A DNA stretch of 64,000 bases. It comes from Phytopythium helicoides (taxonomy: Eukaryota > Oomycota > Peronosporomycetes > Pythiales > Pythiaceae). The notes beneath the pieces are model-generated. The model was not told the origin of the DNA. It made no database searches and saw only the letters and a program-made list of their open reading frames with translations. The position numbers and the translations under genes were made by a program. This document shows positions 44,001 through 64,000 of this stretch, in pieces. Position 1 is the stretch's first letter. Each line of letters starts with the position of its first letter. The stretch lies in assembly GCA_024867545.1 (NCBI GenBank), contig JANFNE010000065.1, forward strand, positions 221,413-285,412. The letters run 5' to 3'.

Positions 44001-46252
44001 AGCGCAGCAAACATCTCGCGCGTGGTGCCTCCAGCGCATGCAGCACAGAGAATCGGCGTCATGCCACTTTCATCAACCGCGTTCGGGTCCGTCACACTGG
44101 AACTGGATCCATTTCGAGAACGAGATAAGAGAGTGCGCACCACATCAACGCGGTTGACACGAGCGGCCCAATGCAGTGGCGTTCGTCCTCGAGCATCTGG
44201 GAAGTTGGGGTCTGCACCAGCGTCCAGCAAGATCTCGACGGCATCGACAGAACCATTCACCGCTGCCCAGTGCAGCGGCGTGCGCTTGTTTAGCCCAACG
44301 TACCCGAGCTCGCCAAGGCAGTCTGGGTTGACTTTTTTCCGCAGGAACGACCGAATCATAACGACATCGTTGCGGGCGGCGGCAGCGTGTAGCGGTGTGA
44401 GCGCCACATCGCCACCCCAGTCCTCGAGCACCTGCGCAACAGCGTAGTTTCCTCGTAGGTAGGCTAGTTGGAGTACTGTAAGCGTGTTCATATGACCCGG
44501 ATCGGGAATGGCAAGGTGGTTGGCGCCGTAAATGAGCAGGACACGCACGATCTCTGGGTTGTCGGCGAGGAAAAGCGGTGGGAGTTTGTGCTCGACGCGA
44601 TAGGACGATTTGGAGCACAAGTTGACATCTGCGCCATGGTCAAGCAACCAACGCACGGCTTCGAGGCGTCCAGTTGATACAGCACAGTGCAGAGGAGTAA
44701 CGAGCGTCGTCTTGAACATTGAGGATGCATATGCTTCGTCAGCGGACACGACCGGCTTCGGGATGAGGAACCGTGCAAAGTACCAAAACAAGTCGCCCGT
44801 GCTCAGCCGAACACGAGAAACCTTGTCAAAAGCGTTGACGTTGAGGCCGCCAACTCGCAGCAGCAAATCCATAGCCGCAAGGTTGCCTTGGTACGCGGCG
44901 ACGTGAAGCGGATTCTTCCGCGCAAAGCCGAACACGCCAAATACCATGGATGGATCGGCATACAGCTCATTGGCAAAGTTGGGGCCGAGGTGCGTTCGAG
45001 CCACACGCAACGAACGCCGTAGCAGCCGCAGATCTCCGAGCTGGGCACCTCGAAAGAGCCGTTTGCGCACATCCTGGATGAGCTGGGACCTAGACGGCAG
45101 CGATGGCGGCGGAAGGATCACAGGGTTGATTACCTCAGCATCGTTATTTTTTCCCGACTTGTTCTTGCCGTCGCCGGACGCCTGCCACGCAAGCTGCTCT
45201 CGGCGTCGACGTCTGCGGCGCTTGGAGCGCAGGACGTGAGCCTTGACGTCGCCCGTCTGGTCGCTCTCCTTGAAGGCGCCAAGCTGCATCTTGAGGTGTT
45301 CGCGGAAGCGTGCGAAGCATCGAATGACGACGAAAAGCATAATAAAGACGAACGCCGCGCCGAAGCAAAAGACGTAGACGACGGCGTTGCCGTCGCAGTC
45401 GGCGAAGAGCCGGCCGCTGGTGAAGAAGTAGATGAAGAAGCCCGAGAGCAGCCCCATGTAAATGAATATGATGACACCGACGAGCTCGCAGAACTGCAGG
45501 AAGATGGTGCGCTTGACCTTCTGCAGGCGTCCGCCGCGGTCGATGCGCTGCTCTCGCTTGAATGGCTCGAACGCGCGTAGTCCGGATGCCGGGAGTCCTA
45601 GCACGAGCACTGCCGGGAAGATGTGGTACACTAGCGAGGACAGCGCGACGGTGGTTCTGCAGCTGTGCTCGTGCTTGGCGAGCATCTCCAGTAGCATGGG
45701 TACCCACAGCCCTCCCCTGTCGATGGGTCTGTCCCTCCTGTAGAAGTAGAAGAAGGCGAGCGCGACGATGTCGACGGCGACGACAAACTGCGACGCGCGC
45801 AGCAGGCGCACCGAGAAGTACGAGTTGAGCTGGAACTGTCCGTTGAGGAAGGAGTTTGGCAGCAGCAGCTGCTGCTTGTCGCCGCCCGTCCTCACGTGCA
45901 CGCTGGCGTGCTCCGGCCGCTGCTGCATGGAGCTCAGGTGCTCCGTGGCTCCCTCGGCCTCGTTGTCGTCGCTGTCCCCTCCGCTTCGGCTCCGCTCGGC
46001 CGCCTGGATCTCCCTCGCCACCACGTCGGCCCCGCTGGGCCTGGGCGCCAGCGACCGCCGCGCCAGCGCCACCTCGATCTCCATGTCCACCGCGCGCGCG
46101 TCCTCCATCTCGCGCTCGCCCTGGTCGCTGTCGAACGTCTCCTGAGCGCGCAACTCGCGCGGCTTGACGGGCGTCTGCAGCCGCGCGTAGCCCGCGGTCT
46201 GCGCCTGCGCCTGCGCCTCGGGGGCCGGCGCCTCGGGGGCCTCCGCCTGCAT
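41057..46252 (-). CDS. Four-TM ankyrin double-TIR protein, copy 2, 1731 aa
   Basis: This is one exon from the ATG at 46252 (MQAEAPEAPAPEAQ); the frame stays open upstream but without conserved content. The Glu/Ala-rich start is followed by four hydrophobic segments, the first two near 155-172 and 200-222. Ankyrin repeats follow (TPLHCAVSTGRLEAV, TPLHWAAVNGSVDAV). The first TIR begins RDVMISYTHSHKEFALKL and keeps SEWCLKEL. A Ser/Gly-rich linker of about 300 residues comes before the second TIR (FVFICHGDYHQRFVRKL), which again has LVRDQ in place of WxxxE. The tail is long and acidic/Ser-rich with an Asp run. Compared with copy 1 it has the same order but a longer linker and tail. Its 5' 690 bases are the starting point of the tandem array that follows. 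Confidence 0.9.
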   Translation of the reverse strand: MQAEAPEAPAPEAQAQAQTAGYARLQTPVKPRELRAQETFDSDQGEREMEDARAVDMEIEVALARRSLAPRPSGADVVAREIQAAERSRSGGDSDDNEAEGATEHLSSMQQRPEHASVHVRTGGDKQQLLLPNSFLNGQFQLNSYFSVRLLRASQFVVAVDIVALAFFYFYRRDRPIDRGGLWVPMLLEMLAKHEHSCRTTVALSSLVYHIFPAVLVLGLPASGLRAFEPFKREQRIDRGGRLQKVKRTIFLQFCELVGVIIFIYMGLLSGFFIYFFTSGRLFADCDGNAVVYVFCFGAAFVFIMLFVVIRCFARFREHLKMQLGAFKESDQTGDVKAHVLRSKRRRRRRREQLAWQASGDGKNKSGKNNDAEVINPVILPPPSLPSRSQLIQDVRKRLFRGAQLGDLRLLRRSLRVARTHLGPNFANELYADPSMVFGVFGFARKNPLHVAAYQGNLAAMDLLLRVGGLNVNAFDKVSRVRLSTGDLFWYFARFLIPKPVVSADEAYASSMFKTTLVTPLHCAVSTGRLEAVRWLLDHGADVNLCSKSSYRVEHKLPPLFLADNPEIVRVLLIYGANHLAIPDPGHMNTLTVLQLAYLRGNYAVAQVLEDWGGDVALTPLHAAAARNDVVMIRSFLRKKVNPDCLGELGYVGLNKRTPLHWAAVNGSVDAVEILLDAGADPNFPDARGRTPLHWAARVNRVDVVRTLLSRSRNGSSSSVTDPNAVDESGMTPILCAACAGGTTREMFAALTGAGGDINFPLASTGDTALHLAVKLEDLQTALSLLSLGSDMMRMNREGLRAIDCTTSTQLQFALKRAAGHRDVMISYTHSHKEFALKLRKSLEAANITVWLDLMDPSGIGGGSVWREEIARGITNAAVVLCVLTEDYAQSEWCLKELALAKQVGTPILALSTERATISEELQVYLYTRQLVPFEPAITSVEHVVVDGDKEGGGKTTAVRYTYDEEAYKNQLTMLLDGLRDEIEKRKVGDMKRNHYLRRQETIQQHLAMSSSGSKRWKLHHVASGMTHKSGGNSSKHLLGDYGSQNRFDEHALEMSATGMGGGGVGDFTGQNESVFDSSRSSFGLMDTPALMNGEFPGLAPIGNSRGPRHRVGGSSRSIRSVGSNGYPSGRGGRRLNFDFSSGNTRRVSSASSVSSMNDDAYAVSDSIVMDTGGYYFHKPNLAELRDDSKKDRANGKRKTSGSSNSDPENPYVSESIVESYQELATAAAGGEQFVFICHGDYHQRFVRKLCVELCREGGLRCFVDRKHLLARQDTTDTDASSALSSSGGRNFGATTMSGSGHHHHHREEDLSRRIHEAKEAILKCSAFVLLVSEKTLASELVRDQLAFAEDKGKKILPVVVDRLEFSLDVKYSLARSEFFHFFSKGDMMGFDRSLAHLLDAVREEVYGITVDTRQQEQQQYSMRMQLPPLSTAAVGEDEYYDSHSADDDNATSMYSAQSFRSFVGVENTSGHSTALRGGFRNLRDSFNEDTAEETDPILLSQNQNYSMASLRRRQRRMSSPTHTSHAFNMASARGGDITGFGLPRLSQSFVDATPTSTRAASLRPTGSSRGVASDWSLSQSIIGNFSSIVGRVSDDELDDDDLDALSYHAGDFDDDDLDDLDGTEYVNSMSSRGGGAYYNGGSSSDDERDMSSTRTWGTAPQRSPTFAPQQHVIGIINEDGDFEAAARQTEARRQLHKGRQGQRSGSISILEERSDVPSTAIDAMLMAPGR

Positions 46253-46881
46253 GCGGAGCGCCGCGTTGCTGCTTGGAACGTGGCGCGCGACCTGCCGACA
46301 CTTAGCGCGCCATGTAAAAGCGCGAATGACTTGGCATGAGTATGGAGCGCAAAGGTGGCGGTTGACAGGGGGGAATGGAGGGTTTTTAGCCAATGAGAGG
46401 GAGGGAAGGAGGGGTTTGGACCAATCAGAGGAGAGGATGGAACGAGCGCATCGCCACACCTTCGACAGTTTTCCACTTGGGCTCAGTATGCGGACAGGGA
46501 GTCAGCAGCAGCTTCCGGCTGGACACATGGCGAGGCTTGACGTGCACCACACGAGGCGAAGACGAGGCTGACATGACAGCCGTCAGCAGCTGGAAAGGGG
46601 AGACACGTTATCAAAGCCGACATTCATGGCTGCACATGGTGACAGCGGCGGCGAGCTGTCTGGAGCAGCAGCGAAGCCTCACGGCTGAGAGAGATTGATG
46701 TCGGTATCTATCTGCATGACCGACTGGGATGAGAAGGCGGTGGAAGTTCTCGCGTGGGTTCTGATGTGGGCGTGGGGATGAGAGGGCGATTTGGTCCGAG
46801 ACGGGTGGAGTAGAAGCGTCATGCGTTCCTGGACGATCGATCCGTGGATTTGGATTTGGAGCAATAGATCGCTCGATGGGT

Positions 46882-47094
46882 TCAAGCTTTCAGCGGAGTG
46901 TGCTCTAGCGTGGCTACCTTAACTTGGACACGTCGCGCTTGACACCATTCGTGGCCGATCATCCCTGTCACTGACTTGATGGACTCCGGTGTCACCGCGG
47001 CGAAGACCTTGGAAGGATCTGGAAGCTGGATGCGTGGCCCCGGGTCGTGAGCCGCGAAGTGCGGCCGCTTGGAATCCACCTTGCAAATAATCAA
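46882..47094 (-). CDS. Possible orphan exon present only in unit 1
   Basis: Behind a good acceptor (ttcttctccgcag, about 47095-47107 on the minus strand) lies an open stretch with natural-looking protein: IICKVDSKRPHFAAHDPGPR, IQLPDPSKVFAAVTPESIKS, VTGMIGHEWCQARRVQVKV, stop at 46882. The other frames are poorer. No upstream exon in a matching phase was found, and the segment is deleted from unit 2. It may be a stranded exon of a host gene; the family is unknown. Confidence 0.35.
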   Translation of the reverse strand: MIICKVDSKRPHFAAHDPGPRIQLPDPSKVFAAVTPESIKSVTGMIGHEWCQARRVQVKVATLEHTPLKA

Positions 47095-47637
47095 CTGCGG
47101 AGAAGAATCGAATGCGACTCGCTCGGGCAGCTTTCACCTACGGCCCCGACATTCAGATGGAATCCAAGGCGCTACCAATGAGCTCTCATCAAGCCTTCTA
47201 CGCGACCGAGGAATCCAGCAGCGTCTTTGAGTCCTCTAGTTAGTCTTCAAGACGCTCGGTTCCTTGCTGGGTTCCTGGCACTCCATGCTAACAAGAAACA
47301 AGCGTGTCGTGCAGAGATTATTATCACTTAGCAGTTCATGCGCTTATGTCATATGATACGGAGTTGGGAGCCAAGCAAAACATGGGTCAGAATAGAACAG
47401 AGAATACTAGAGATGTGCATTTAATTGCTTGGGTCTATCTCAAAGCAACCAAGCAACAAATGAACTTGACAGCCTCATGTTCCAATTCCGCATCGACTGC
47501 ATCAATATGCACTTACACCTGGCGTAGCAGTGCTTTCAAGACAGTAACGAATTGGAGGAAATGAAAGAGCTTTGAAAGAAGACATTCCGAATAAGGAAAC
47601 GCTACCAAACCTTGACAGCTCCACTTTCGTCCTAGGT

Positions 47638-47880
47638 GCAGCGGAGCCCGGCCGACCGGCGGGTGTACAACTATTTAGCGTAAACCCACCGAAGTCATTC
47701 ATTGATGTTGATCCTATCCATTCGTCCATGTTTGCTTTTTCCTCAAGCAGACCATCAAGCGGGAACCACGCACCTCATTGTGAACCGAGGCTAATATCAA
47801 ACCAGAAGCAAGGTCACCTTCATCAAATCGTCCAGAATTTCATCACGTTCTTTGCTGCGTTTTCATTTCAACGATAGCCC
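47638..47880 (+). pseudogene. Inverted fragment of the cullin 3' end
   Basis: The plus strand carries the last codons of the cullin ([11 protein letters not shown], stop) and its downstream flank. It is the mirror image of 53782-54025. It is the outer end of the left arm of the A/B palindrome and shows that the palindrome formed after the element had joined the cullin. Confidence 0.8.
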
Positions 47881-48033
47881 GCACCAATAATCGAACTCGG
47901 CGTTTAGCGCTTCAATTCCGCAACACAGAACACTTCCAAAATAGAGGAATTGAAAGAACTTTGAAAGAAGACATTCAGAATAAGGAAACGCTACCACCAA
48001 CCTTGACAACTCCACTTTTGTCCTAGGTCCTCC

Positions 48034-50664
48034 CTACGCCTCACCTTCCTCGCTTTTCTCAACCTCGCGACTCGGAAGCAAATCAAACAACACAGATGCC
48101 GTCTCAGTAGCTCCCTTGCGTGGCAAAACACTCGATAAACGCATGCGAGCTGCCTTGTCCTCATAGCGTGCATTCAGATCGGCCTCCACTTTTGTCTTGC
48201 CGTCCCACCACGCCAAGTTGGCAAGCGTCCTCAGCTCTTTCATTGTTGGAGACGCCAAAAAAGACCACGAATACCCCCATTGCTCTGCGTCTGGGGCGAA
48301 CATCCCTCGAACACACAGCGCAAAATCGTCGACCCGCACAGACGCACCCGTGTTGGTCCTCTTTCTCGTATTCGCCACTCCTGGCATCAACACACACTTG
48401 TTGGGGAATTGATCGGTCGCGCGCTCACGCAGACTCATATAAAGACGAATCATCTTGTTCACAGGAGTGAGATGAAGCGGATGTGCGCTGTCGAACACGT
48501 ACGAAGGAGACAAACAATGGAGTGCCGAATGAGGAAACCCACTGTCATGGTCAGCGCGATTCTTCACTTGCACCAGCACAAATGACACTTCTCTGTCGCG
48601 AAATATCGGGAGGAGCAAGTCGGCTCCCTTGTGGTTGTGTGGCATGATACCAGCTGCGCGGCGCTCCAACATCCTCCACAAAAAGTCGTCGGTTGGTAAC
48701 TTTGGCACGTCCACAAAGTGGCTATAGCCGATCTTCCACCCCTCCCATGTCTGCAGCCACGCTTCGCATTGTTCATGATAGTCTGGATCCTGGTTTGACT
48801 CGTCTGGCTTTTGCACTACCGACACACCATCACACAAAACCGCGTCTTGACCGATGAGCATGCGAATGAACTCCGGAACATCACAGAACTGACCAGCAAA
48901 CACAAACGCTTGCTCCTCTTCTCGCGTTCTCACGCCCTCTGCACGCATCATTGTCGCGTCCATCGCCAACAACAGAAAGATGCGAGCCACGAGTTCGCCG
49001 ATATTCCCCGCGTCAACCATTCCTTCGATCAGCATACTCTTGAACCGAGGCAAAAGGTGGGTAGTCAGCGCCGGTGGATCCAGCTGATACCAAATGCGCG
49101 ACGCACCGAACGTCAAGATCGGGTCCGACGAGTAGTTGGTGAGGTGCATGTCGTTCTTGTACCCGACGTAGTGGAGAACACTCATCAAGTCGGCAACCAT
49201 GCGAGAAGCCATCGGGTCTCTCTCTCGTGGACGCAATCCGGCTCGACAAAACAGTGCAGCTACGCCGTGGAGAGTGGTGTCGTTGTAGCTTTTATCCTCA
49301 TCAGCAGCTTCCCCGATCAGCAGCTTGGAAGAAGCAAATCGATTAAGGCTTTCCTTCCTCTCATCGAATGAGTCACCTCGCGATATCCCGTGCCACAGAG
49401 GACGACCGAGGGAAACAAGAGCCAACCAAACACGCTCTGGGTCCGTCTCCAGCACTCGGTCCATACTTGAAGTTCCATGAAATGGCGATGAAGGGAGCCG
49501 CATCATGACGTCCATCGTTTGCGTCAGGACGAACGGCGGGAACAAAAACGTATTTGGATCCCCTCGAGATGACGGATCATATCGAAGAGCTGGGGTGGAG
49601 TCGTGCACCATAGGCACTATAGGGCTTGTGTCGACAAGCACCGCGAAGACCATACCGTTGACAGCGTTGACTACGGGAGATCTGAATACCATCCTGAGCG
49701 CTCGTCGCAACATTCGAAACGAGTTGATTCTGTTCACATCCGTGACCTTCAACAGAGCTCGAGCCTCATCAATAGCCAACACGAGAACCGGCACTTTCGT
49801 CTTCGTACGCGTCTTGCTCGTTTCAATGTGTGGACGTTTGGAAGCTCTGGAGTCCGGTATTTGAGACGCACTTCGGACCAACAGCTCAAACTCTCCAGCC
49901 AGTCGCGTGTCAAGAGTCTGACCGTTTATCTTTGGGTTGGAGAAGAGATGCAGCCATTGCTGTGATGCTGTGGAGGGGTGGTCAATCGCATACTGGAACA
50001 GATCAGCGAGCTTGTTCTTGATATTGTTCTCCTCGCCAAAAGGATGGAAGAGCCAATTACCCAAATCGGGGGTTGCACACGGATACCCAGTCGATCCCAC
50101 GGGGTCACGTAGATTGACGTACAACACCTTCATGTCGAACTCGTAGCCACCGCTAGAGATTGTGTTGCCTTGTGCGGTGAACTCTGCGAGTCGCTGTAGC
50201 ACACGACTCTTGCCAAACCCCGAGCTTTGGGTTATCGTCGTGTAGGGAGACGTATAGGCGGAGGGAGACGCGCAGTAGGCAGCACAGCATCGAGCGAGAT
50301 GATCCCGAAAGAATGCGTCAGCTCCTTCAACGTACTGTTCTCGGAAGGCTTGTGCTGTCGTTCCAAAGGTGGAGTCGGGATCGACGCTAACAATCTGTTT
50401 GGTGTTGTGTAGGTTGAGTGCGGCGAATGCGGCTGCAACTACCTTCGGGCGAGCTTTCCTAGGTACGTTGAATCCCATATACGCGTCGGTAAAGGCAGCT
50501 CTGATCTCTTTTTTGACGGCTTCCGCGCCTTCAGCGAGTTTGATTTCCCTCTCGATGCTCGGTGACAGCTCACAATAGTCAACTTCGACACCTTCTTCGA
50601 TCAGAGAGTTGTAGACGGCAGCGGAGAGCACGTCAACGATGCCATGCTTCTTGATGGACTTCAT
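48034..50664 (-). CDS. P-loop NTPase / PD-(D/E)XK-like nuclease protein, gene A (Crinkler-type architecture)
   Basis: The protein has 876 residues from the ATG at 50664 (MKSIKKHGIVDVL). The frame stays open further upstream, but that extension is broken in the unit 2 copy, so it is leader. The N-terminal ~130 residues (LIEEGVEVDYCELSPSIER...) are a conserved helical header. Walker A-like SSGFGKSRVL lies near 147-156, and Walker B LVLAIDEA near 295-300. The C-terminal part has GADLLLPIF, then FVLVQVKNR, the D...QxK pattern of restriction-endonuclease-fold nucleases. This combination is published for eukaryotic effectors and selfish proteins derived from transposases, including oomycete Crinklers. 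No signal peptide, RxLR or LxLFLAK motif is seen. Unlike its siblings it has NHKG rather than NQSTRG before the nuclease motif and lacks two residues in the DFDRAHP stretch. It is head-to-head with B. Confidence 0.85.
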   Translation of the reverse strand: MKSIKKHGIVDVLSAAVYNSLIEEGVEVDYCELSPSIEREIKLAEGAEAVKKEIRAAFTDAYMGFNVPRKARPKVVAAAFAALNLHNTKQIVSVDPDSTFGTTAQAFREQYVEGADAFFRDHLARCCAAYCASPSAYTSPYTTITQSSGFGKSRVLQRLAEFTAQGNTISSGGYEFDMKVLYVNLRDPVGSTGYPCATPDLGNWLFHPFGEENNIKNKLADLFQYAIDHPSTASQQWLHLFSNPKINGQTLDTRLAGEFELLVRSASQIPDSRASKRPHIETSKTRTKTKVPVLVLAIDEARALLKVTDVNRINSFRMLRRALRMVFRSPVVNAVNGMVFAVLVDTSPIVPMVHDSTPALRYDPSSRGDPNTFLFPPFVLTQTMDVMMRLPSSPFHGTSSMDRVLETDPERVWLALVSLGRPLWHGISRGDSFDERKESLNRFASSKLLIGEAADEDKSYNDTTLHGVAALFCRAGLRPRERDPMASRMVADLMSVLHYVGYKNDMHLTNYSSDPILTFGASRIWYQLDPPALTTHLLPRFKSMLIEGMVDAGNIGELVARIFLLLAMDATMMRAEGVRTREEEQAFVFAGQFCDVPEFIRMLIGQDAVLCDGVSVVQKPDESNQDPDYHEQCEAWLQTWEGWKIGYSHFVDVPKLPTDDFLWRMLERRAAGIMPHNHKGADLLLPIFRDREVSFVLVQVKNRADHDSGFPHSALHCLSPSYVFDSAHPLHLTPVNKMIRLYMSLRERATDQFPNKCVLMPGVANTRKRTNTGASVRVDDFALCVRGMFAPDAEQWGYSWSFLASPTMKELRTLANLAWWDGKTKVEADLNARYEDKAARMRLSSVLPRKGATETASVLFDLLPSREVEKSEEGEA

Positions 50665-50944
50665 TTGGCCGCGGTCCCGGCGAGCGGTGCTGAGGAGAAG
50701 AATTTGCTTACTTGAATATGCCGACCTTTCGTGAGTGAAGTGAGGTTTTCGTGGAGAATTAACAAGAAAATACTGGCTCGGAAATCTCAAGTGAAAATGG
50801 TATTGAACTATTCTCTTCAATGCTTTCAAGATTGAGGTGACGATGACTGAAGCCGCGCGTTGCGCCGAAATCGAGTTTTGACGGAACAGTACTATTATCA
50901 ATCATCGACAGTTGTCATTCCTGCCTTGCTCGATCTCGTCCTAA

Positions 50945-50960
50945 TTGCATTCCCAAATCT
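50945..50960 (+). promoter_or_regulatory. Oomycete-type initiator plus flanking element upstream of gene B
   Basis: The sequence ttgcattcccaaatct, 42 bases before the gene B ATG, closely fits the described oomycete core promoter GCTCATTYYNCAWTTT: it keeps CATTCC, the A/W positions and the T-rich end. The same sequence precedes gene D. Position and spacing support it as the transcription start region. Confidence 0.6.
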
Positions 50961-51001
50961 GCGTCGAGAGAGAAAAGTCGAACTGCACCAACGCAAACAA
51001 A

Positions 51002-53620
51002 ATGGAAGTCAAGAAACAAAGCATCGTTAGTGTGCTCTCCACTGCCGCTTACGACGCTCTGATTGAAGAAGGTGTCGAAGTTGACTATTGTGAGCTGTCA
51101 CCGAGCATTGAGAGGAGAATCAAACTCGCTGAAGGCGCGGAAGCCGTCAAAAAAGAGATCAGACTTGCCGTTTCCGACGCGTATATGGAATTCAGCGTAC
51201 CTAGGAAATTTCGCGCGAAGGTAGTTGCAGCCGCATTCGCCGCATTCAAGCTGCACAACACCGAACAGATTGTTAGCGTCGATCCCGTCTCCACCTTTGA
51301 AACGACAGCACAAGCCTTCCAACAACAGTACGTTGAAGGAGCTGACGCATTCTTTCGGGATCATCTCGCTCGATGCTGTGCAGCCTACTACGGGTCTCCC
51401 TCCTCCTATACGTCTCCCTACACGACGATAACCCAAAGCTCGGGGTTTGGCAAGAGTCGTGTGCTACAGAGACTCGCAGAGTTCACCGCACAAGGCAACA
51501 CAATCTCTAGCGGTGGCTACGAGTTCGACATGAAGGTGTTGTACGTCAATCTTCGTGACCCCGTGGGATCGACTGGGTATCCGTGTGCAACCCCCGCTTT
51601 GGGTCGTTGGCTCTTCGATCCTTTTGGAGATGAGAACAGTATCAAGAACAAGCTCGCTGATCTGTTCCAGTATGCGATTGACCACCCCTCCGCAGCATCA
51701 CAGCAATGGCTGCATCTCTTCTCCAACCCAAAGATAAACGGTCAGACTCTTGACAGACGACTGGCTGAAGAGCTGTCGGTCCGAAGTGCGTCCCGAACAC
51801 CGGACTCCAGAGCTTCCAAAAGTCCACACTTTGAAACGAGCAAGACGCGTACGAAGACGAAAGTGCCGGTTCTCGTGTTGGCTATTGATGAGGCTCGAGC
51901 TCTGTTGAAGGTCACGGATGTGAACAGAATCAACTCGTTTCGAATGTTGCGACGAGCGCTCAGGATGGTATTCAGATCTCCCGTAGTCAACGCTGTCAAC
52001 GGTATGGTCTTCGCGGTGCTTGTCGATACGAACTCCATAGTGCACGACTTCACCCCAGCTCTTCGATATGATCCGTCATCTCGAGGGGATCCAAATACGT
52101 TTTTGTTCCCGCCGTTCGTCCTGACGCAAACGATGGACGTCATGATGCGGCTCCCTTCGTCGCCATTTCATGGAACTTCAAGTATGGACCGAGTGCTGGA
52201 GACGGACCCAGAGCGTGTTTGGTTAGCTCTTGTTTCCCTCGGTCGTCCTCTGTGGCACGGGATATCGCGAGGTGACTCATTCGATGCGAGGAAGGAAAAC
52301 CTTAATCGATTTGCTTCTTCCAAGCTGCTGATCGGGGAAGCTGCTCAAAAGGATAGCAGCTACAACGACACCACTCTCCACGGCGTAGCTGCACTGTTTT
52401 GTCGAGCCGGATTGCGTCCACGAGAGAGAGACCCGGTGGCTCCTCGCATGGTTGCCGACTTGATGAGTGTTCTCCACTACGTCGGGTACAAGAACGACAT
52501 GCATCTCACCAACTACTCGTCGGACCCGATCTTGACGTTCGGTGCGTCGCGCATTTGGTATCAGCTGGATCCGCCGGCGCTGACTACCCACCTTTTGCCT
52601 CGGTTCAAGAGTATGCTGATCGAAGGAATGGTTGACGCGGGGAATATCGGCGAACTCGTGGCTCGCATCTTTCTGCTGTTGGCGATGGACGCGACAATGA
52701 TGCGTGCAGAGGGCGTGAAAACGCGAAAAGCAGAGCAAGCGTTTGTGTTTGCTGGTCAGTTCTGTGATGTTCCGGAGTTCATTCGCATGCTCATCGGTGA
52801 AGACGCGGTTTTGTGTGATGGTGTGTCGGTAGTGCAAAAGCCAGACGAGTCAAGCCAGGATCCAGACTATCATGAACAATGCGAAGCGTGGCTGCAGACA
52901 TGGGAGGGGTGGAAGATCGGCTATAGCCACTTTGTGGACGTGCCAAAGTTACCAACCGACGACTTTTTGTGGAGGATGTTGGAGCGCCGCGCAGCTGGTA
53001 TCATGCCACACAACCAAAGCACGAGGGGAGCCGACTTGCTCCTCCCGATATTTCGCGACAGAGAAGTGTCGTTTGTGCTGGTGCAAGTGAAGAATCGCGC
53101 TGACCATGACAGTGAGTTTCCTCATTCGGCACTCCACTGTTTGTCTCCTTCGTACGTGTTCGACTTCGACCGCGCACATCCGCTTCATCTCACTCCTGTG
53201 AACAAGATGATTCGTCTTTATATGAGTCTGCGTGAGCGCGCGACCGATCAATTCCCCAACAAGTGTGTGTTGATGCCAGGAGTGGCGAATACGAGAAAGA
53301 GGACCAAAACGGGTGCGTCTGTGCGAGCCGACGATTTTGCGCTGTGTGTTCGAGGGATGTTCGCCCCAGACGCAGAGCAATGGGGGTATTCGTGGTCTTT
53401 TTTGGCGTCTCCAACAATGAAAGAGCTGAGGACGCTTGCCAACTTGGCGTGGTGGGACGGCAAGACAAAAGTGGAGGCCGATCTGAATGCACGCTATGAG
53501 GACGAGGCAGCTCGCATGCGTTTATCGAGTGTTTTGCCACGCAAGGGAGCTACTGAGACGGCATCTGTGTTGTTTGATTTGCTTCCGAGTCGCGAGGTTG
53601 AGGACAAGCGAGGAAGGTGA
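51002..53620 (+). CDS. P-loop NTPase / PD-(D/E)XK-like nuclease protein, gene B
   Basis: The protein has 872 residues from the ATG at 51002 (MEVKKQSIVSVLSTAAYDAL), about 40 bases after an initiator-like element. All the motifs of gene A are intact: SGFGKS, LAIDEA, GADLLLPIF and QVKNR. Its first 60 residues differ from the others (MEVKK start, RRIKLAEG, FSVPRKFRAK). The linker before Walker B (VRSASRTPDSRASKSPHFE) is also distinctive. A neighbouring change gives EAAQKDSSY where C and D have EAADEDKSY. Past the stop comes the border sequence shared with gene A, in mirror orientation, and then the truncated cullin. Intact coding in all four copies suggests selection on the protein or very recent amplification. 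Confidence 0.85.
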   Translation: MEVKKQSIVSVLSTAAYDALIEEGVEVDYCELSPSIERRIKLAEGAEAVKKEIRLAVSDAYMEFSVPRKFRAKVVAAAFAAFKLHNTEQIVSVDPVSTFETTAQAFQQQYVEGADAFFRDHLARCCAAYYGSPSSYTSPYTTITQSSGFGKSRVLQRLAEFTAQGNTISSGGYEFDMKVLYVNLRDPVGSTGYPCATPALGRWLFDPFGDENSIKNKLADLFQYAIDHPSAASQQWLHLFSNPKINGQTLDRRLAEELSVRSASRTPDSRASKSPHFETSKTRTKTKVPVLVLAIDEARALLKVTDVNRINSFRMLRRALRMVFRSPVVNAVNGMVFAVLVDTNSIVHDFTPALRYDPSSRGDPNTFLFPPFVLTQTMDVMMRLPSSPFHGTSSMDRVLETDPERVWLALVSLGRPLWHGISRGDSFDARKENLNRFASSKLLIGEAAQKDSSYNDTTLHGVAALFCRAGLRPRERDPVAPRMVADLMSVLHYVGYKNDMHLTNYSSDPILTFGASRIWYQLDPPALTTHLLPRFKSMLIEGMVDAGNIGELVARIFLLLAMDATMMRAEGVKTRKAEQAFVFAGQFCDVPEFIRMLIGEDAVLCDGVSVVQKPDESSQDPDYHEQCEAWLQTWEGWKIGYSHFVDVPKLPTDDFLWRMLERRAAGIMPHNQSTRGADLLLPIFRDREVSFVLVQVKNRADHDSEFPHSALHCLSPSYVFDFDRAHPLHLTPVNKMIRLYMSLRERATDQFPNKCVLMPGVANTRKRTKTGASVRADDFALCVRGMFAPDAEQWGYSWSFLASPTMKELRTLANLAWWDGKTKVEADLNARYEDEAARMRLSSVLPRKGATETASVLFDLLPSREVEDKRGR

Positions 53621-54025
53621 GGCGTAGGGAGGACCTAGGACAAAAGTGGAGTTGTCAAGGTTGGTGGTAGCGTTTCCTTATTCTGAATGTCTTCTTTCAA
53701 AGCTCTTTCAATTCCTCTATTTTGGAAGTGTTCTGTGTTGCGGAATTGTAGTGCTAAACGCCGAGTTCGATTATTGGTGCGGGCTATCGTTGAAATGAAA
53801 ACGCAGCAAAGAACGTGATGAAATTCTGGACGATTTGATGAAGGTGACCTTGCTTCTGGTTTGACATTTGCCTCGGTTCACAATGAGGTGCGTGGTTCCC
53901 GCTTGATGGTCTGCTTGAGGAAAACGTAAACATGGACGAATGGATAGGATCAACATCAATGAATGACTTCGGTGGGTTTACGCTAAATAGTTGTACACCC
54001 GCCGGTCGGCCGGGCTCCGCTGGAG
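51002..54025 (+). repeat. Right arm of the A/B palindrome
   Basis: This is the mirror of 47638-50664: gene B, its 3' border (gaggcgtagggaggacctagg...cttattctgaatgtcttct), then the cullin 3' flank and last codons. The match ends inside the cullin's final exon near 54025. Confidence 0.85.
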
Positions 54026-55852: not shown

Positions 55853-56829
55853 GCGGAGCGCCGCGTTGCTGCTTGGAACGTGGCGCGCGACCTGCCGACA
55901 CTTAGCGCGCCATGTAAAAGCGCGAGTGACTTGGCATGAGTATGGAGTGCGAGGGTGGCGGTTGACAGGGGGGAATGGAGGGTTTTTAGCCAATGAGAGG
56001 GAGGGAAGGAGGGGTTTGGACCAATCAGAGGAGAGGAAGGAACGAGCGCATCTCCACACGCGGACGGACCTTCGACGGTTTTTGCACTTGGGCTCAGTAT
56101 GCGGACAGGGAGTCAGCAGCAGCTTCCGGCTGGACACATGGCGAGGCTTGACGTGCACCACACGAGGCGAAGACGAGGCTGACATGACAGCCTTCAGCAG
56201 CTGGAAAGGGGAGACACGTTATCAAATCCGACATTCATGGCTGCACATGGTGACAGCGGCGGCGAGCTGTCTGGAGCAGCAGCGAGGCCTCACGGCTGAG
56301 AGAGATTGGGTGGCGGCGTCTATCTGCATGACCGACTGGGATGAGAAGGCGGTGGAAGTTCTCGCGTGGGTTCTGATGTGGGCGTGGGGATGAGAGGGCG
56401 ATTTGGTCCGAGACGGGTGGAGTAGAAGCGTCATGCGTTCCTGGACGATCGATCCGTGGATTTGGCTAATAAGAAACAAGCGTGTCGTGCAGAGATTACT
56501 ATCACTTAGCAGTTCATGCGCTTATGTCATATGATACGGAGTTGGGAGCCAAGCAAAACATGGGCCAGAATAGAACAGAGATTACTAGAGATGTGCATTT
56601 AATTGCTTGGGTCTATTTCAAAGCAACCAAGCAACAAAGGAACTTGACAGCCTCATGTTCCAATTCCGCATCGACTGCATCAATATGCACTTACACCTGA
56701 CATAGCAGTGCTTTCAAGACAGTACCGTTTTGGAGGAAATGAAAGAGCTTTGAAAGAAGACATTCAGAATAAGGAAACGCTACCACCAACCTTGACAACT
56801 CCACTTTTGTCCTAGGCCCTCCCTACGCC
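55853..56829. other. Flank between TIR-ankyrin fragment and gene C
   Basis: This is a shorter version of 46253-48033. It lacks the ~420-base segment after gatttgg (56460-56466) and the inverted cullin fragment, leaving one copy of the border sequence next to gene C. No gene of its own is seen. Confidence 0.65.
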
Positions 56830-59448
56830 TCACCTTCCTCGCTTGTCCTCAACCTCGCGACTCGGAAGCAAATCAAACAACACAGATGCCGTCTCAGTAG
56901 CTCCCTTGCGTGGCAAAACACTCGATAAACACATGCGAGCTGCCTTGTCCTCATAGCGTGCATTCAGATCGGCCTCCACTTTTGTCTTGCCGTCCCACCA
57001 CGCCAAGTTAGCAAGCGTCCTCAGCTCTTTCATTGTTGGAGACGCCAAAAAAGACCACGAATACCCCCATTGCTCTGCGTCTGGGGCGAACATCCCTCGA
57101 ACACACAGCGCGAAATCGTCGGCTCGCACAGACGCACCCGTTTTGGTCCTCTTTCTCGTATTCGCCACTCCTGCCATCAACACACACTTGTTGGGGAATT
57201 GATTGGTCGCGCACTCACGCAGACTCATATAAAGACGAATCATCTTGTTCACAGGAGTGAGATGAAGCGGATGCGCGCGGTCGAAGTCGAACACGTACGA
57301 AGGAGACAAACAATGGAGTGCCGAATGAGGAAACTCACTGTCATGGTCAGCGCGATTCTTCACTTGCACCAGCACAAACGACACTTCTCTGTCGCGAAAT
57401 ATCGGGAGGAGCAAGTCGGCTCCCCTCGTGCTTTGGTTGTGTGGCATGATACCAGCTGCGCGGCGCTCCAACATCCTCCACAAAAAGTCGTCGGTTGGTA
57501 ACTTTGGCACGTCCACAAAGTGGCTATAGCCGATCTTCCACCCCTCCCATGTCTGCAGCCACGCTTCGCATTGTTCATGATAGTCTGGATCCTGGCTTGA
57601 CTCGTCTGGCTTTTGCACTACCGACACACCATCACACAAAACCGCGTCTTCACCGATGAGCATGCGAATGAACTCCGGAACATCACAGAACTGACCAGCA
57701 AACACAAACGCTTGCTCCTCTTCTCGCGTTCTCACGCCCTCTGCACGCATCATTGTCGCGTCCATCGCCAACAACAGAAAGATGCGAGCCACGAGTTCGC
57801 CGATATTCCCCGCGTCAACCATTCCTTCGATCAGCATACTCTTGAACCGAGGCAAAAGGTGGGTAGTCAGTGCCGGCGGATCCAGCTGATACCAAATGCG
57901 CGACGCACCGAACGTCAAGATCGGGTCCGACGAGTAGTTGGTGAGATGCATGTCGTTCTTGTACCCGACGTAGTGGAGAACACTCATCAAGTCGGCAACC
58001 ATGCGAGGAGCCATCGGGTCTCTCTCTCGTGGACGCAATCCGGCTCGACAAAACAGTGCAGCTACGCCGTGGAGAGTGGTGTCGTTGTAGCTTTTATCCT
58101 CATCAGCAGCTTCCCCGATCAGTAGCTTGGAAGAAGCAAATCGATTAAGGTTTTTCCTCCTCTCATTGAATTGGTCACCTCGCAATATCCCGTGCCACAG
58201 AGGACGACCGAGGGAAACAAGAGCTAACCAAACACGCTCTGGGTCCGTCTCCAGCACTCGGTCCATACTTGAAGTTCCGTGAAATGGCGACGAAGGGAGC
58301 CGCATCATGACGTCCATCGTTTGCGTCAGGACGAATGGCGGGAACAAAAACGTATTTGGATCCCCTCGAGATGACGGATCATATCGAAGAGCAGGGGTGA
58401 AGTCGTGCACTATGGGGTTTGTGTCGACAAGCACCGCGAAGACCATACCGTTGACAGCTTCGACTACGGGAGATCTGAATACCATCCTGAGCGCTCGTCG
58501 CAACATTCGAAACGAGTTGATTTTGTTCACATCCGTGACCTTCAACAGAGCTCGAGCCTCATCAATAGCCAACACGAGAACCGGCACTTTCGTCTTCGTA
58601 CGCGTCTTGCTCGTTTCAAAGTGCAAATGCTTGGAAGCTCTGGAGTCCGGTGTTTGGGATGCACTTCGGACCGACAGCTCTTCAGCCAGTCGTGTGTCAA
58701 GAGTTTGACCGTTTATCGTTGGGTTGGAGAAGAGATGCAGCCATTGCTGTGATGCTGCGGAGGGGTGGTCAATCGCATACTGGAACAGATCAGCGAGCTT
58801 GTTCTTGATACTGTTCTCGCCAAAAGGATGGAAGAGCCAATGACCCAAATCAGGGGTTGCACACGGATACCCAGTCGATCCCACGGGGTCACGCAGATTG
58901 ACGTACAACACCTTCATGTCGAACTCGTAGCCACCGCTGGAGATTGTGTTGCCTTGTGCGGTGAACTCTGCGAGTCTCTGTAGCACACGACTTTTGCCAA
59001 ACCCCGAGCTTTGGGTTATCGTCGTGTAGGGAGACGTATAGGAGGAGGGAGACCCGTAGTAGGCTGCACAGCATCGAGCGAGATGATCCCGAAAGAATGC
59101 GTCAGCTCCTTCAACGTACTGTTGTTGGAAGGCTTGTGCTGTCGTTTCAAAGGTGGAGTCGGGATCGACGCTACCAATCTGTTCGGTGTTGTGCAGCTTG
59201 AATGCGGCGAATGCGGCTTCAACTACCTTCGCGCGAGCTTTCCTAGGTACGTTGAATCCCATATACGCGTCGAGAACGGCAAGTCTGATCTCTTTTTTGA
59301 CGGCTTCCGCGCCTTCAGCGAGTTTGATTTCCCTCTCAATGCTCGGTGACAGCTCACAATAGTCAACTTCGACACCTTCTTCGATCAGAGTGTTGTAGAT
59401 GACCGCGGAGAGCACACCAACGATGCTTTGCTTCTTGATGGACTTCAT
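56830..59448 (-). CDS. P-loop NTPase / PD-(D/E)XK-like nuclease protein, gene C
   Basis: The protein has 872 residues from the ATG at 59448 (MKSIKKQSIVGVLSAVIYNT). The header runs to about 130, SSGFGKS is at 147-153, and LVLAIDEA ends near 298 (D296, E297). GADLLLPIF (Asp 678) and QVKNR (Gln 695, Lys 697) follow. Compared with gene A it lacks the GEFELLV insert before the linker and has NQSTRG before the nuclease motif. Its N-terminal variant VIYNTLIEEG is shared with gene D rather than with A or B. Near the C-terminus it has CATNQFPNKCVLMAG where the others have RATDQFPNKCVLMPG. It is head-to-head with D. Confidence 0.85.
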   Translation of the reverse strand: MKSIKKQSIVGVLSAVIYNTLIEEGVEVDYCELSPSIEREIKLAEGAEAVKKEIRLAVLDAYMGFNVPRKARAKVVEAAFAAFKLHNTEQIGSVDPDSTFETTAQAFQQQYVEGADAFFRDHLARCCAAYYGSPSSYTSPYTTITQSSGFGKSRVLQRLAEFTAQGNTISSGGYEFDMKVLYVNLRDPVGSTGYPCATPDLGHWLFHPFGENSIKNKLADLFQYAIDHPSAASQQWLHLFSNPTINGQTLDTRLAEELSVRSASQTPDSRASKHLHFETSKTRTKTKVPVLVLAIDEARALLKVTDVNKINSFRMLRRALRMVFRSPVVEAVNGMVFAVLVDTNPIVHDFTPALRYDPSSRGDPNTFLFPPFVLTQTMDVMMRLPSSPFHGTSSMDRVLETDPERVWLALVSLGRPLWHGILRGDQFNERRKNLNRFASSKLLIGEAADEDKSYNDTTLHGVAALFCRAGLRPRERDPMAPRMVADLMSVLHYVGYKNDMHLTNYSSDPILTFGASRIWYQLDPPALTTHLLPRFKSMLIEGMVDAGNIGELVARIFLLLAMDATMMRAEGVRTREEEQAFVFAGQFCDVPEFIRMLIGEDAVLCDGVSVVQKPDESSQDPDYHEQCEAWLQTWEGWKIGYSHFVDVPKLPTDDFLWRMLERRAAGIMPHNQSTRGADLLLPIFRDREVSFVLVQVKNRADHDSEFPHSALHCLSPSYVFDFDRAHPLHLTPVNKMIRLYMSLRECATNQFPNKCVLMAGVANTRKRTKTGASVRADDFALCVRGMFAPDAEQWGYSWSFLASPTMKELRTLANLAWWDGKTKVEADLNARYEDKAARMCLSSVLPRKGATETASVLFDLLPSREVEDKRGR

Positions 59449-59734
59449 TTGGCCACGATCCTGGCGAGCGGTGCTGAGGAGAAGAATTTGCTCACTTGAA
59501 TATGCCGACCTTTCGTGAGTGAAGTGAGGTTCTCGTGGAGAAAGGGCTTAACAAGAAAATACTGGGCTCGGAAATCTCAAGTGAAAATGGTATTGAACTA
59601 TTCTCTTCAATGCTTTCAAGATTGAGGTGACGATGACTGAAGCCACGAGTTGGGCCGAGCACGAGTTTTGACGGAACAGTACTATTATCAATCATCGACA
59701 GTTGTCATCCCTGCCTTGCTCGATCTCGTCCTAA

Positions 59735-59750
59735 TTGCATTCCCAAATCT
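59735..59750 (+). promoter_or_regulatory. Oomycete-type initiator plus flanking element upstream of gene D
   Basis: This is the same ttgcattcccaaatct sequence and the same 42-base distance to the ATG as in front of gene B, conserved between the two units. Confidence 0.6.
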
Positions 59751-59791
59751 GCGTCGAGAGAGAAAAGTCGAACTGCACCAACGCAAACAAA

Positions 59792-62452
59792 ATGGAAGTC
59801 AAGAAGCAAAGCATCGTTAGTGTGCTCTCCGCGGTCATCTACAACACTCTGATCGAAGAAGGTGTCGAAGTTGACTATTGTGAGCTGTCACCGAGCATTG
59901 AGAGGGAAATCAAACTCGCTGAAGGCGCGGAAGCCGTCAAAAAAGAGATCAGACTTGCCGTTCTCGACGCGTATATGGGATTCAACGTACCTAGGAAAGC
60001 TCGCCCGAAGGTAGTTGAAGCCGCATTCGCCGCATTCAAGCTGCACAACACCGAACAGATTGTTAGCGTCGATCCCGACTCCACCTTTGAAACGACAGCA
60101 CAAGCCTTCCAACAACAGTACGTTGAAGGAGCTGACGCATTCTTTCGGGATCATCTCGCTCGATGCTGTGCAGCCTACTACGGGTCTCCCTCCTCCTATA
60201 CGTCTCCCTACACGACGATAACCCAAAGCTCGGGGTTTGGCAAAAGTCGTGTGCTACAGAGACTCGCAGAGTTCACCGCACAAGGCAACACAATCTCCAG
60301 CGGTGGCTACGAGTTCGACATGAAGGTGTTGTACGTCAATCTGCGTGACCCCGTGGGATCGACTGGGTATCCGTGTGCAACCCCTGATTTGGGTCATTGG
60401 CTCTTCCATCCTTTTGGCGAGAACAGTATCAAGAACAAGCTCGCTGATCTGTTCCAGTATGCGATTGACCACCCCTCCGCAGCATCACAGCAATGGCTGC
60501 ATCTCTTCTCCAACCCAACGATAAACGGTCAAACTCTTGACACACGACTGGCTGGAGAGTTTGAGCTGTTGGTCCGAAGTGCGTCCCGAACACCAGACTC
60601 CAGTGCGTCACAAATACCTGACTTCACAACTTCTCAACGTCTACATGTCGACGACAGCAAGCCAGAAACAAGTAAGACGCGTACGAAGACGAAAGTGCCG
60701 GTTCTCGTGTTGGCTATTGATGAGGCTCGAGCTCTGTTGAAGGTCACGGATGTGAACAAAATCAACTCGTTTCGAATGTTGCAGAGAGCGCTCAGGATGG
60801 TATTCAGATCTCCCGTAGTCGAAGCTGTCAACGGTATGGTCTTCGCGGTGCTTGTCGATACGAACTCCATAGTGCACGACTTCACCCCAGCTCTTCGATA
60901 TGATCCGTCATCTCGAGGGGATCCAAATACGTTTTTGTTCCCGCCGTTCGTCCTGACGCAAACGATGGACGTCATGATGCGGCTCCCTTCGTCGCCATTT
61001 CATGGAACTTCAAGTATGGACCGAGTGCTGGAGACGGACCCAGAACGTGTTTGGTTGGCTCTTGTTTCCCTCGGTCGTCCTCTGTGGCACGGGATATTGC
61101 GAGGTGACCAATTCAATGAGAGGAGGAAAAACCTTAATCGATTTGCTTCTTCCAAGCTACTGATCGGGGAAGCTGCTGATGAGGATAAAAGCTACAACGA
61201 CACCACTCTCCACGGCGTAGCTGCACTGTTTTGTCGAGCCGGATTGCGTCCACGAGAGAGAGACCCGATGGCTCCTCGCATGGTTGCCGACTTGATGAGT
61301 GTTCTCCACTACGTCGGGTACAAGAACGACATGCATCTCACCAACTACTCGTCGGACCCGATCTTGACGTTCGGTGCGTCGCGCATTTGGTATCAGCTGG
61401 ATCCGCCGGCGCTGACTACCTACCTTTTGCCTCGGTTCAAGAGTATGCTGATCGACGGAATGGTTGACGCGGGGAATATCGGCGAACTCGTGGCTCGCAT
61501 CTTTCTGCTGTTGGCGATGGACGCGACAATGATGCGTGCAGAGGGCGTGAGAACGCGAGAAGAGGAGCAAGCGTTTGTGTTTGCTGGTCAGTTCTGTGAT
61601 GTTCCGGAGTTCATTCGCATGCTCATCGGTGAAGACGCGGTTTTGTGTGATGGTGTGTCGGTAGTGCAAAAGCCAGACGAGTCAAGCCAGGATCCAGACT
61701 ATCATGAACAATGCGAAGCGTGGCTGCAGACATGGGAGGGGTGGAAGATCGGCTATAGCCACTTTGTGGACGTGCCAAAGTTACCAACCGACGACTTTTT
61801 GTGGAGGATGTTGGAGCGCCGCGCAGCTGGTATCATGCCACACAACCAAAGCACGAGGGGAGCCGACTTGCTCCTCCCGATATTTCGCGACAGAGAAGTG
61901 TCGTTTGTGCTGGTGCAAGTGAAGAATCGCGCTGACCATGACAGTGAGTTTCCTCATTCGGCACTCCACTGTTTGTCTCCTTCGTACGTGTTCGACTTCG
62001 ACCGCGCACATCCGCTTCATCTCACTCCTGTGAACAAGATGATTCGTCTTTATATGAGTCTGCGTGAGCGCGCGACCGATCAATTCCCCAACAAGTGTGT
62101 GTTGATGCCAGGAGTGGCGAATACGAGAAAGAGGACCAAAACGGGTGCGTCTGTGCGAGCCGACGATTTTGCGCTGTGTATTCGAGGGATGTTCGCCCCA
62201 GACGCAGAGCAGTGGGGGTATTCGTGGTCTTTTTTGGCGTCTCCAACAATGAAAGAGCTGAGGACGCTTGCTAACTTGGCGTGGTGGGACGGCAAGACAA
62301 AAGTGGAGGCCGATCTGAATGCACGCTATGAGGACAAGGCAGCTCGCATGTGTTTATCGAGTGTTTTGCCACGCAAGGGAGCTACTGAGACGGCATCTGT
62401 GTTGTTTGATTTGCTTCCGAGTCGCGAGGTTGAGGACAAGCGAGGAAGGTGA
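59792..62452 (+). CDS. P-loop NTPase / PD-(D/E)XK-like nuclease protein, gene D
   Basis: The protein has 886 residues from the ATG at 59792 and is the longest of the four. All NTPase and nuclease motifs are intact. The extra length lies in the linker before Walker B. After GEFELLVRSASRTPDS comes an insertion (SASQIPDFTTSQRLHVDDS) before ETSKTRTKTK. The header is the gene C type (VIYNTLIEEG), the start is the gene B type (MEVKKQSIVSVL) and GEFELLV is shared with gene A, so it looks like a mosaic. The 3' border and cullin flank follow as in unit 1. Confidence 0.85.
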   Translation: MEVKKQSIVSVLSAVIYNTLIEEGVEVDYCELSPSIEREIKLAEGAEAVKKEIRLAVLDAYMGFNVPRKARPKVVEAAFAAFKLHNTEQIVSVDPDSTFETTAQAFQQQYVEGADAFFRDHLARCCAAYYGSPSSYTSPYTTITQSSGFGKSRVLQRLAEFTAQGNTISSGGYEFDMKVLYVNLRDPVGSTGYPCATPDLGHWLFHPFGENSIKNKLADLFQYAIDHPSAASQQWLHLFSNPTINGQTLDTRLAGEFELLVRSASRTPDSSASQIPDFTTSQRLHVDDSKPETSKTRTKTKVPVLVLAIDEARALLKVTDVNKINSFRMLQRALRMVFRSPVVEAVNGMVFAVLVDTNSIVHDFTPALRYDPSSRGDPNTFLFPPFVLTQTMDVMMRLPSSPFHGTSSMDRVLETDPERVWLALVSLGRPLWHGILRGDQFNERRKNLNRFASSKLLIGEAADEDKSYNDTTLHGVAALFCRAGLRPRERDPMAPRMVADLMSVLHYVGYKNDMHLTNYSSDPILTFGASRIWYQLDPPALTTYLLPRFKSMLIDGMVDAGNIGELVARIFLLLAMDATMMRAEGVRTREEEQAFVFAGQFCDVPEFIRMLIGEDAVLCDGVSVVQKPDESSQDPDYHEQCEAWLQTWEGWKIGYSHFVDVPKLPTDDFLWRMLERRAAGIMPHNQSTRGADLLLPIFRDREVSFVLVQVKNRADHDSEFPHSALHCLSPSYVFDFDRAHPLHLTPVNKMIRLYMSLRERATDQFPNKCVLMPGVANTRKRTKTGASVRADDFALCIRGMFAPDAEQWGYSWSFLASPTMKELRTLANLAWWDGKTKVEADLNARYEDKAARMCLSSVLPRKGATETASVLFDLLPSREVEDKRGR

Positions 62453-62809
62453 GGCGTAGGGAGGACCTAGGACAAAAGTGGAGTTGTCAAGGTTGGTGGT
62501 AGCGTTTCCTTATTCTGAATGTCTTCTTTCAAAGCTCTTTCAATTCCTCTATTTTGGAAGTGTTCTGTGTTGCGGAATTGTAGTGCAGAACGCCGAGTTC
62601 GATTATTGGTGCGGGCTATCGTTGAAATGAAAACGCAGCAAAGAACGTGATGAAATTCTGGACGATTTGATGAAGGTGACCTTGCTTCTGGTTTGACATT
62701 AGCCTCGGTTCACAATGAGGTGCGTGGTTCCCGCTTGATGGTCTGCTTGAGGAAAACGTAAACATGGACGAATGGATAGGATCAACATCAATGAATGACT
62801 TCGGTGGGT

Positions 62810-63980
62810 TTACGCTAAATAGTTGTACACCCGCCGGTCGGCCGGGCTCCGCTGGAGGTACTCGCGCTCGATCAGGCTCTCGATGCGCAGCTTGATCAGC
62901 TGCGGGGAAGGCGAAAAACGCCCGGCCATCTGACGCGTCACCTCGGCAATCAGCTGGTTGTGAGGCATCTGCTTGCGTGTTTTCATGATGCGGACTATCG
63001 CCGCTTCCACTGAACAGTATCGAGGTGTATGCGTTAGAGACGTTGATACAAACCCAGCAACTAGCAGCAAACAACACAAAGCACGCACCAAGATGCTTGC
63101 GGTCCTCGGCGACTGTCGGTGGAAGCGCATCCACCGGGTGCTTCGAGGCAATCCCCGCCATGGCTGGGAGCAGCGACGATTCTTTCTGAGACACCAGCGG
63201 TATCCGCACTCGGTGCAGCTTCGACTTGTATCCGTCGTTCACGGTGAATGAGTCCACCTCCTCGTCGATGCGTTTCCCCTTGGAGCTCTTGACCAGAATC
63301 TTGTATTTGGGCGTGCACAGCGATATCAGGTGACGCTTGAGGTCGCTCGCTTCAATTCCAGTGCACTCGGCTAGATCCTTGTAGCTCCACTCCGACTTGT
63401 CGTTGAACAGCATCAATATGACTGCTTGATATGTCGACACGCTCAGTTCATGACGGGATTTGGCACCGCCATCTTCAACTCCGCCAAAGAAGGTAGCTCG
63501 AACATCGACGGTACCCATATTCACTAGCCACGCGAGCTTCCGACCGTTGTGACGTGCCAGGTAAAACGTCTCAAACGAAGAGATCATCTTCGTCAGTGCC
63601 GACGGGAGCGTGCACATTGGGGACATCTCTGTCGGCCAGAACCCGCTCGTCAGAACTTGGACTGAGAGAGGAGGAGCCAGGTCGAGCAAAAAGTCGTTCG
63701 ACTGAAGGAGGCTCGTAGCATTCGCGTTCCGCGCGTTCGTGGTCGACACCTAGCGGTACAGCTCCATCAAGTCCTTCGAGATACTCATATCCTTGAACAT
63801 CCCTTCGAGCTTGGACGTGAACTGGTAACCACACTCCGCTTTAAGTTTCGAGATCACTAGCTTCTCGGCCTCGTCGGACGTTCCGCGACCACTTAGCAGC
63901 CGCTTCGCAAGCAAGAGTTTATAGAATTCCTCGAACACGTCCTTGTCTTGCAGATAGCAGAACAGCGCAATCACCTGCGT
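62810..63980 (-). pseudogene. CUL3-like cullin, C-terminal half, with premature stop (copy 2)
   Basis: Exons at about 63089-63980 and 62810-63009 mirror copy 1. The codon after DLMELYR is TAG (63750-63752), where copy 1 has AAG. Translation from the upstream side would therefore end after about 75 residues. The rest, including VRIMK and the YNYLA end, is still open. This points to loss of selection on the captured cullin piece, unlike the neighbouring NTPase-nuclease genes. Confidence 0.87.
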
Positions 63981-63992
63981 GACTCGAACGTG

Positions 63993-64000
63993 AATGGCTC
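63993..64000. repeat. First bases of tandem array unit 3
   Basis: The window ends in cgaacgtgaatggctc, the same junction as at 55153-55168. This implies that another TIR-ankyrin fragment, and probably another unit, follows. Confidence 0.6.

Follow-up and report, generated by a model that had tools for sequence, protein, structure and literature searches.

How does a pair of mirror-image genes come to be repeated, unit after unit, between the ends of two unrelated genes? The question is raised by a 64,000-nucleotide stretch of DNA from the oomycete Phytopythium helicoides, referred to here as the window, which covers bases 221413-285412 of contig JANFNE010000065.1 (C63) in an assembly of 49.06 Mb and 100 contigs (GCA_024867545.1). 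Towards its right end lie head-to-head genes for ATPase-nuclease proteins, set between pieces of a cullin gene and of a TIR-ankyrin gene. An earlier note, made from the letters of the window alone, had described a tandem array in which a possibly selfish gene pair is amplified between captured pieces of host genes. The array is larger than that note stated, with at least six copies of the mirror-image gene pair. We consider it probable that it is a locally amplified gene cluster, made of palindromic pairs between the native TIR-ankyrin and cullin genes and formed in the ordered steps set out below.

Extent and limits of the array

Self-comparison of the window resolves two tandem units, unit 1 of 9,600 bp (45559-55158, plus strand) and unit 2 of 8,832 bp (55159-63990, plus strand), which bears out the unit size of 8.8-9.6 kb proposed earlier. 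Three direct repeats connect them, 45559-46853/55159-56465 at 96.6%, 47944-51820/56733-60614 at 95.3%, and 51833-55168/60665-64000 at 98.7%, and nothing in unit 2 corresponds to 46854-47286 or to the tip of the left arm. Each unit harbors one ATPase-nuclease open reading frame (ORF) on the minus strand and one on the plus strand, head to head as the earlier note had it: U1A (48034-50664, minus, 876 aa) and U1B (51002-53620, plus, 872 aa) in unit 1, and U2A (56830-59448, minus, 872 aa) and U2B (59792-62452, plus, 886 aa) in unit 2. All four paired genes have open frames, in line with the claim that they are intact, and unit 1 does start, at 45559, inside the native TIR-ankyrin gene, whose open 1,731-aa ORF (41057-46252, minus strand; ORF list and domain scan) contains the left edge of the array.

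The end of the window coincides with that of C63 (285,412). The array resumes on contig C49 at base 1, which is the joint base itself, and runs to C49:35457, as mapped with the unit pieces onto C49:1-50000. The final 10 bases of C63 (63991-64000, plus strand), which open the next unit, are identical to the opening 10 bases of C49. Because of this identity, and because both native flanks are present, we infer that C63 and C49 adjoin in the genome. Six head-to-head pairs are then found, U1 and U2 on C63 and U3 to U6 on C49, together with an additional single copy, S7 (C49:38583-41189). Open frames are maintained in all 13 array genes, which encode proteins of 872-897 aa with a mutual identity of 95.7-99.2%. 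Parts of the array are flipped, since C49:6230-14242 recurs inverted at C49:14603-22631 with 98.6% identity. At this one locus, several like units share one novel joint and are bounded by their native, intact source genes, the open TIR-ankyrin ORF on the left (C63) and a cullin gene with a 754-codon open frame on the right (C49).

Palindromic pairs and a misplaced cullin tail

Each gene pair is a palindrome of two inverted copies, a feature that the earlier note did not mention. In unit 1, the left arm (arm A, 47639-50654, minus strand) and the right arm (arm B, 51009-54022, plus strand) are inverted copies of each other with 96.0% identity. Gene B converges on the cullin gene, the last 14 codons and stop of which lie at 53978-54022. 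The same 45-base tail is also found, without the remainder of the cullin gene, at 47639-47683 (plus strand), where the left arm has its outer tip. A scan tolerating 5 mismatches located the tail at nine places, unchanged in all of them. Five are in a cullin context, three are joined to the tail of an array gene (47639, C49:2072, and C49:26808-26852), and one, at C49:27997, is joined to a TIR-ankyrin upstream piece. As the native home of the cullin gene is on the right side of the array, arm A is, judged from these contexts, an inverted copy of the end formed by gene B and the cullin tail.

The joint between the two flanking genes

The joint between cullin and TIR-ankyrin lies at 55158/55159 and again at 63990/63991, which confirms a shared junction and moves the positions given earlier (55160 and 63992) by 1-2 bases. 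It falls at the identical base in three fully covered places, of which one is inverted and another differs in 1 of 37 bases; the contig end shows it at this base too. Relative to the native genes, the overlap at the joint is 1 bp. The earlier note had proposed microhomology joining through the sequence ctcgaacg. This octamer does occur on either side of the joint, but each copy is native: the intact cullin gene has one just before the break, and the intact TIR-ankyrin gene has the other from the eighth base past the break. Since it is native in both genes, ctcgaacg is no trace of microhomology joining.

Within the window, the cullin 3' pieces occupy 53978-55158 (minus strand, convergent with U1B) in unit 1 and 62810-63990 (minus strand) in unit 2, and a copy of the TIR-ankyrin 5' piece with its upstream region, the frame of which is open up to the joint, opens unit 2 (55159-56465, minus strand). 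At the far edge of the array, the cullin piece at C49:35457 continues into the 754-codon frame, which carries a Cullin domain. Read in this way, the cullin and TIR-ankyrin pieces are the own flanks of this locus, swept along with the genes, and not captured cargo as had been thought. They had also been described as truncated or stopped. The TIR-ankyrin pieces are truncated, but none of four has a stop before the joint; a fifth piece, C49:27578-27993, consists of the upstream region only.

Exchange and selection among the copies

Arms of the same pair are more alike (mean identity 97.5%) than arms from different units (A-A 96.5%, B-B 96.4%, A-B 96.3%), which suggests gene conversion between the arms of one pair. 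When all 720 ways of pairing A with B arms were compared, the observed mean was attained by the true pairing alone; among 100,000 random matchings, it was reached 152 times. Neighbouring informative sites are incompatible at a rate of 0.39, compared with a mean of 0.52 when the 170 sites are shuffled (lowest of 200 shuffles, 0.50), as mosaic sequences would give. In a tree of residues 101-610, the arms are joined in three of the six pairs (U4 100/94, U5 98/98, U2 80/99; bootstrap values not settled), and those of U1, U3, and U6 are not grouped. The proteins have two endings, EDKRGR and SEEGEA (for example at 53600-53620 and 48034-48070), which an indel of one base close to the stop sets apart; they are mixed among the units and serve as a marker of exchange. 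The unequal differences among parts speak against a simple history, with 0.3-1.0% in the cullin pieces, 0.3-2.6% in the TIR-ankyrin pieces, and 0.8-4.3% in the genes. It may be, though this is not proven, that the divergence of A and B predates the tandem step and was later scrambled.

The 13 array copies vary at 266 sites. Nonsense changes number 0 among at least 284 changes, against 9.1 expected (P 9e-5, with the observed spectrum assumed to be neutral), and the gene frames stay open; this upholds the earlier suggestion that the gene pair is the part being kept. Mean nonsynonymous divergence (dN) is 0.032 and mean synonymous divergence (dS) 0.050 over 78 pairs of copies, a ratio of 0.65, with four pairs above 1. 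In residues 1-100, dN (0.113) and dS (0.101) are both higher, which would reflect fast or old variation and is no proof of positive selection.

The protein family and its relatives

The array proteins probably consist of a variable N-terminus, an AAA+-like ATPase, and a C-terminal PD-(D/E)XK-like nuclease. The Walker A (SSGFGKS) and Walker B (DEA) motifs are at least 90% conserved in 31 aligned rows, and the ATPase region is similar to ATPases of the Cdc6/ORC type. The nuclease region resembles restriction enzymes, with weak fold scores. Among 20 rows, D79 is invariant and Q96 and K98 are at least 90% conserved, with rows P0013 and P0025 deviating at the K position; we take these residues to be the PD-(D/E)XK catalytic motif, that is, D and (D/E/Q)xK.

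No Pfam match was obtained at E 0.01 for the four array proteins of the window, and 10 relatives gave only weak rows below the cut-off (best AAA_22, E 0.00082). A search of NCBIfam with five proteins returned two weak rows, E 0.098 and 0.01, far below the cut-off, and a sequence search of solved structures found none at E 1. Word-pattern stretches from viruses (35) and prokaryotes (45) were not confirmed in any case by tblastn, which could leave distant relatives. One fungal relative was found, in Gloeophyllum trabeum (E 3e-4). These results point to an uncharacterised oomycete ATPase-nuclease family, below the cut-offs of Pfam and NCBIfam in the proteins scanned.

Family members elsewhere in the genome

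The 55 matching stretches in the genome comprise the 13 genes of the array together with further genes or fragments on C1, C4, C34, C24, C54, C6, and C68. A unit of 6.3-6.4 kb is present in three copies on C4 and two on C1, within a segment that, together with its flanks, the two contigs share at about 95% identity. The homologous segments, C1:1.791-1.8085 Mb and C4:1.2305-1.254 Mb, carry a related gene in two and three tandem copies, respectively, and the difference in copy number may be one between haplotypes or between segmental duplicates. On C34, a 9.6-kb head-to-head unit is present twice, its two genes being unlike at the DNA level. Contig C54 carries an inverted pair at 94% and another copy between pieces of a helicase gene: at C54:204000-210500, two 818-bp inverted repeats with Helicase_C_2, 99.0% alike, enclose the related gene. 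The head-to-head order is also found on C34, C54, and C6, and copies on C1, C4, and C24 point in the same direction. Relatives of the helicase piece at 70-77% adjoin another cluster of the family (C54:118.8-119.2 kb).

Other features of the window

Unit 1 contains an interspersed repeat of about 220 bp (47158-47375, plus strand). When 40 of 136 candidates were scored, at least 35 further occurrences came to light, spread over many contigs. In unit 2 the left part of the repeat is gone and the right part remains at 56465-56553; an apparently sharp 85-base start of the repeat was considered and rejected, being just the edge of the unit-2 deletion. No tRNA was found at the repeat with ARAGORN in bacterial mode, and no known RNA with Rfam at gathering thresholds over 45000-64000.

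Further to the left, an inverted repeat of about 0.8 kb (15555-16352/17549-18327, 92%) encloses an inner inverted pair (16482-16701/16981-17207). Two ankyrin-kinase genes (6710-9778 and 11406-14369) have two kinase stretches each, and a stretch at 96.9% common to both (8607-9216/13240-13849) suggests a recent exchange. Two TIR-ankyrin genes, 25717-29553 (plus) and 41057-46252 (minus), lie in opposite orientation with two TIR_2 stretches each, and 28093-28505 and 43431-43843 within them are 75% alike and inverted. For a 1,412-aa gene of the window, the closest proteins with a name come from Globisporangium ultimum (59%) and Pythium oligandrum (63% over 78%), and an unnamed protein ranks first at 71%.

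How the array may have formed

In the explanation that we favor, a fold-back (inverted) duplication running from gene B to the 3' end of the cullin gene would have produced the head-to-head pair. A single illegitimate event, joining broken cullin to broken TIR-ankyrin, would then have given the first tandem copy, after which unequal exchange would raise the copy number. At this last step, recombination between inverted arms would also flip parts of the array and keep the arms within one palindrome alike. Selection would keep the gene frames open, the ends of the host genes being hitch-hiking by-products. At the protein level, the AAA+/STAND-like ATPase region may control or drive the C-terminal PD-(D/E)XK-type nuclease, which would cut nucleic acid in a biological conflict, and the variable N-terminal helical domain may serve recognition or targeting, with the host plant, a microbe, a virus, or the own genome as candidate targets.

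Could the array instead be a product of assembly, a single pair having been multiplied or haplotypes or fold-back reads stitched together? The break between C63 and C49 falls precisely on the joint, where the two contigs overlap by 10 bases, and the palindrome on C49 is 98.6% identical over 8 kb; highly alike palindromes can come from fold-back reads. However, with differences among the 13 copies at 266 sites, multiplication of a single unit in assembly is unlikely; unit-specific deletions and insertions are present, as are both native flanks. The palindrome halves are not identical either (U4A and U4B, 99.2%), and one gene of the window, searched likewise, has a single place in the genome, so that the region is not generally doubled. 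We regard an artefact as very unlikely. Slightly less credence still is given to a mobile DNA element whose ATPase-nuclease pair would be a transposase or helper, with the host pieces as cargo. The family is present on seven other contigs, prokaryotic NTPase-restriction endonuclease (REase) proteins are linked with transposable elements according to passages of PMC5289972, and one copy on C54 lies between inverted repeats. These repeats were rejected as transposon ends, however: they hold a piece of a helicase gene and have two full and two partial copies in the genome, which makes them unlike element ends. Moreover, C1 and C4 match past the limits of the units and thus form one larger homologous segment. 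By eye, no terminal repeats or common ends were seen among the edges of the array, C1/C4, and C54, the edges of C34, C24, C6, and C68 being outside the comparison. Different units with different neighbours, and no common ends where compared, favor repeated local duplication over transposition, and for the selfish element of the earlier note there is no positive evidence. Scarcely to be expected is a family that drives its own amplification, its product breaking or over-replicating DNA near its own genes as a selfish amplifier that never transposes; if so, the gene would grow in place into palindromic arrays without element ends, and the sign of this would be the recurrent local arrays on C63/C49, C1/C4, C34, and C54, whose units differ.

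Two further proposals concern what the proteins do. They could tentatively be regarded as cell-internal defence proteins, STAND-like ATPases with a nuclease acting against viruses or invaders and expanded like immune-receptor genes. The STAND NTPase-nuclease Avs3, a defence protein, likewise combines a P-loop ATPase and a PD-(D/E)XK-type nuclease in a single chain, but its matched nuclease is N-terminal (chain residues 24-196), whereas that of the array proteins is C-terminal, and the similarity is at the level of the fold only. Against this proposal, PADLOC gave no matches in five proteins at E 0.1, and the nuclease fold scores are weak. Rather doubtful is a role as secreted effectors of the Crinkler (CRN) kind, the header having been lost or exchanged. 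According to passages of PMC5289972, an NTPase, a helix-turn-helix, and an REase form the commonest layout of CRN C-termini in Phytophthora, and the array proteins share with CRN effectors the succession of an ATPase region and a restriction-enzyme-like nuclease, as well as expansion in oomycetes. The genome also has at least 40 matches to the Crinkler header. The array genes themselves are without it, however (no Pfam match to PF20147 in the four window proteins at E 0.01), and a comparison of the family profile with 4 of the 40 header genes gave no match (best E 0.33). Contigs C63, C1, C4, C34, C54, C24, and C68 have no header matches, and where such matches occur on C49 and C6, they are far from the family genes; many are on C12 and C50. 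Passages of PMC9430622 give 0-25 CRN genes in nine Pythium species and 61 in P. myriotylum, annotated genes not being equivalent to header matches.

Significance for the family

The locus is a well-preserved case of palindromic and tandem amplification, in which familiar types of event are combined so that they can be read with unusual clarity. It looks like one family amplified and reshuffled locally, and not like a new mobile element. Mammalian Y chromosomes have palindromes with arm-to-arm gene conversion, and inverted gene copies are similarly kept alike inside each palindrome here, but arm identity at the present locus is no more than 96-99%, and its palindromes follow one another in tandem. 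Passages of PMC9430622 report that tandem arrays contain 27% of the genes of P. myriotylum and that dN/dS is below 1 for nearly all of them. The local tandem duplication of one gene family is common to both cases; by contrast, the present unit is a palindromic pair with two unrelated flanking-gene ends and inversions, and those passages do not mention palindromes. A narrow look at the literature found nothing on this locus, and no priority is claimed.

The analysis corrects the tempting reading that a selfish pair has captured cargo. With the misplaced cullin tail and the common joint as markers, the order of events and changes in copy number could be traced in other isolates, and the locus illustrates clearly how a gene family of an oomycete may grow through fold-back duplication, an illegitimate joint, unequal exchange, arm flipping, and gene conversion.

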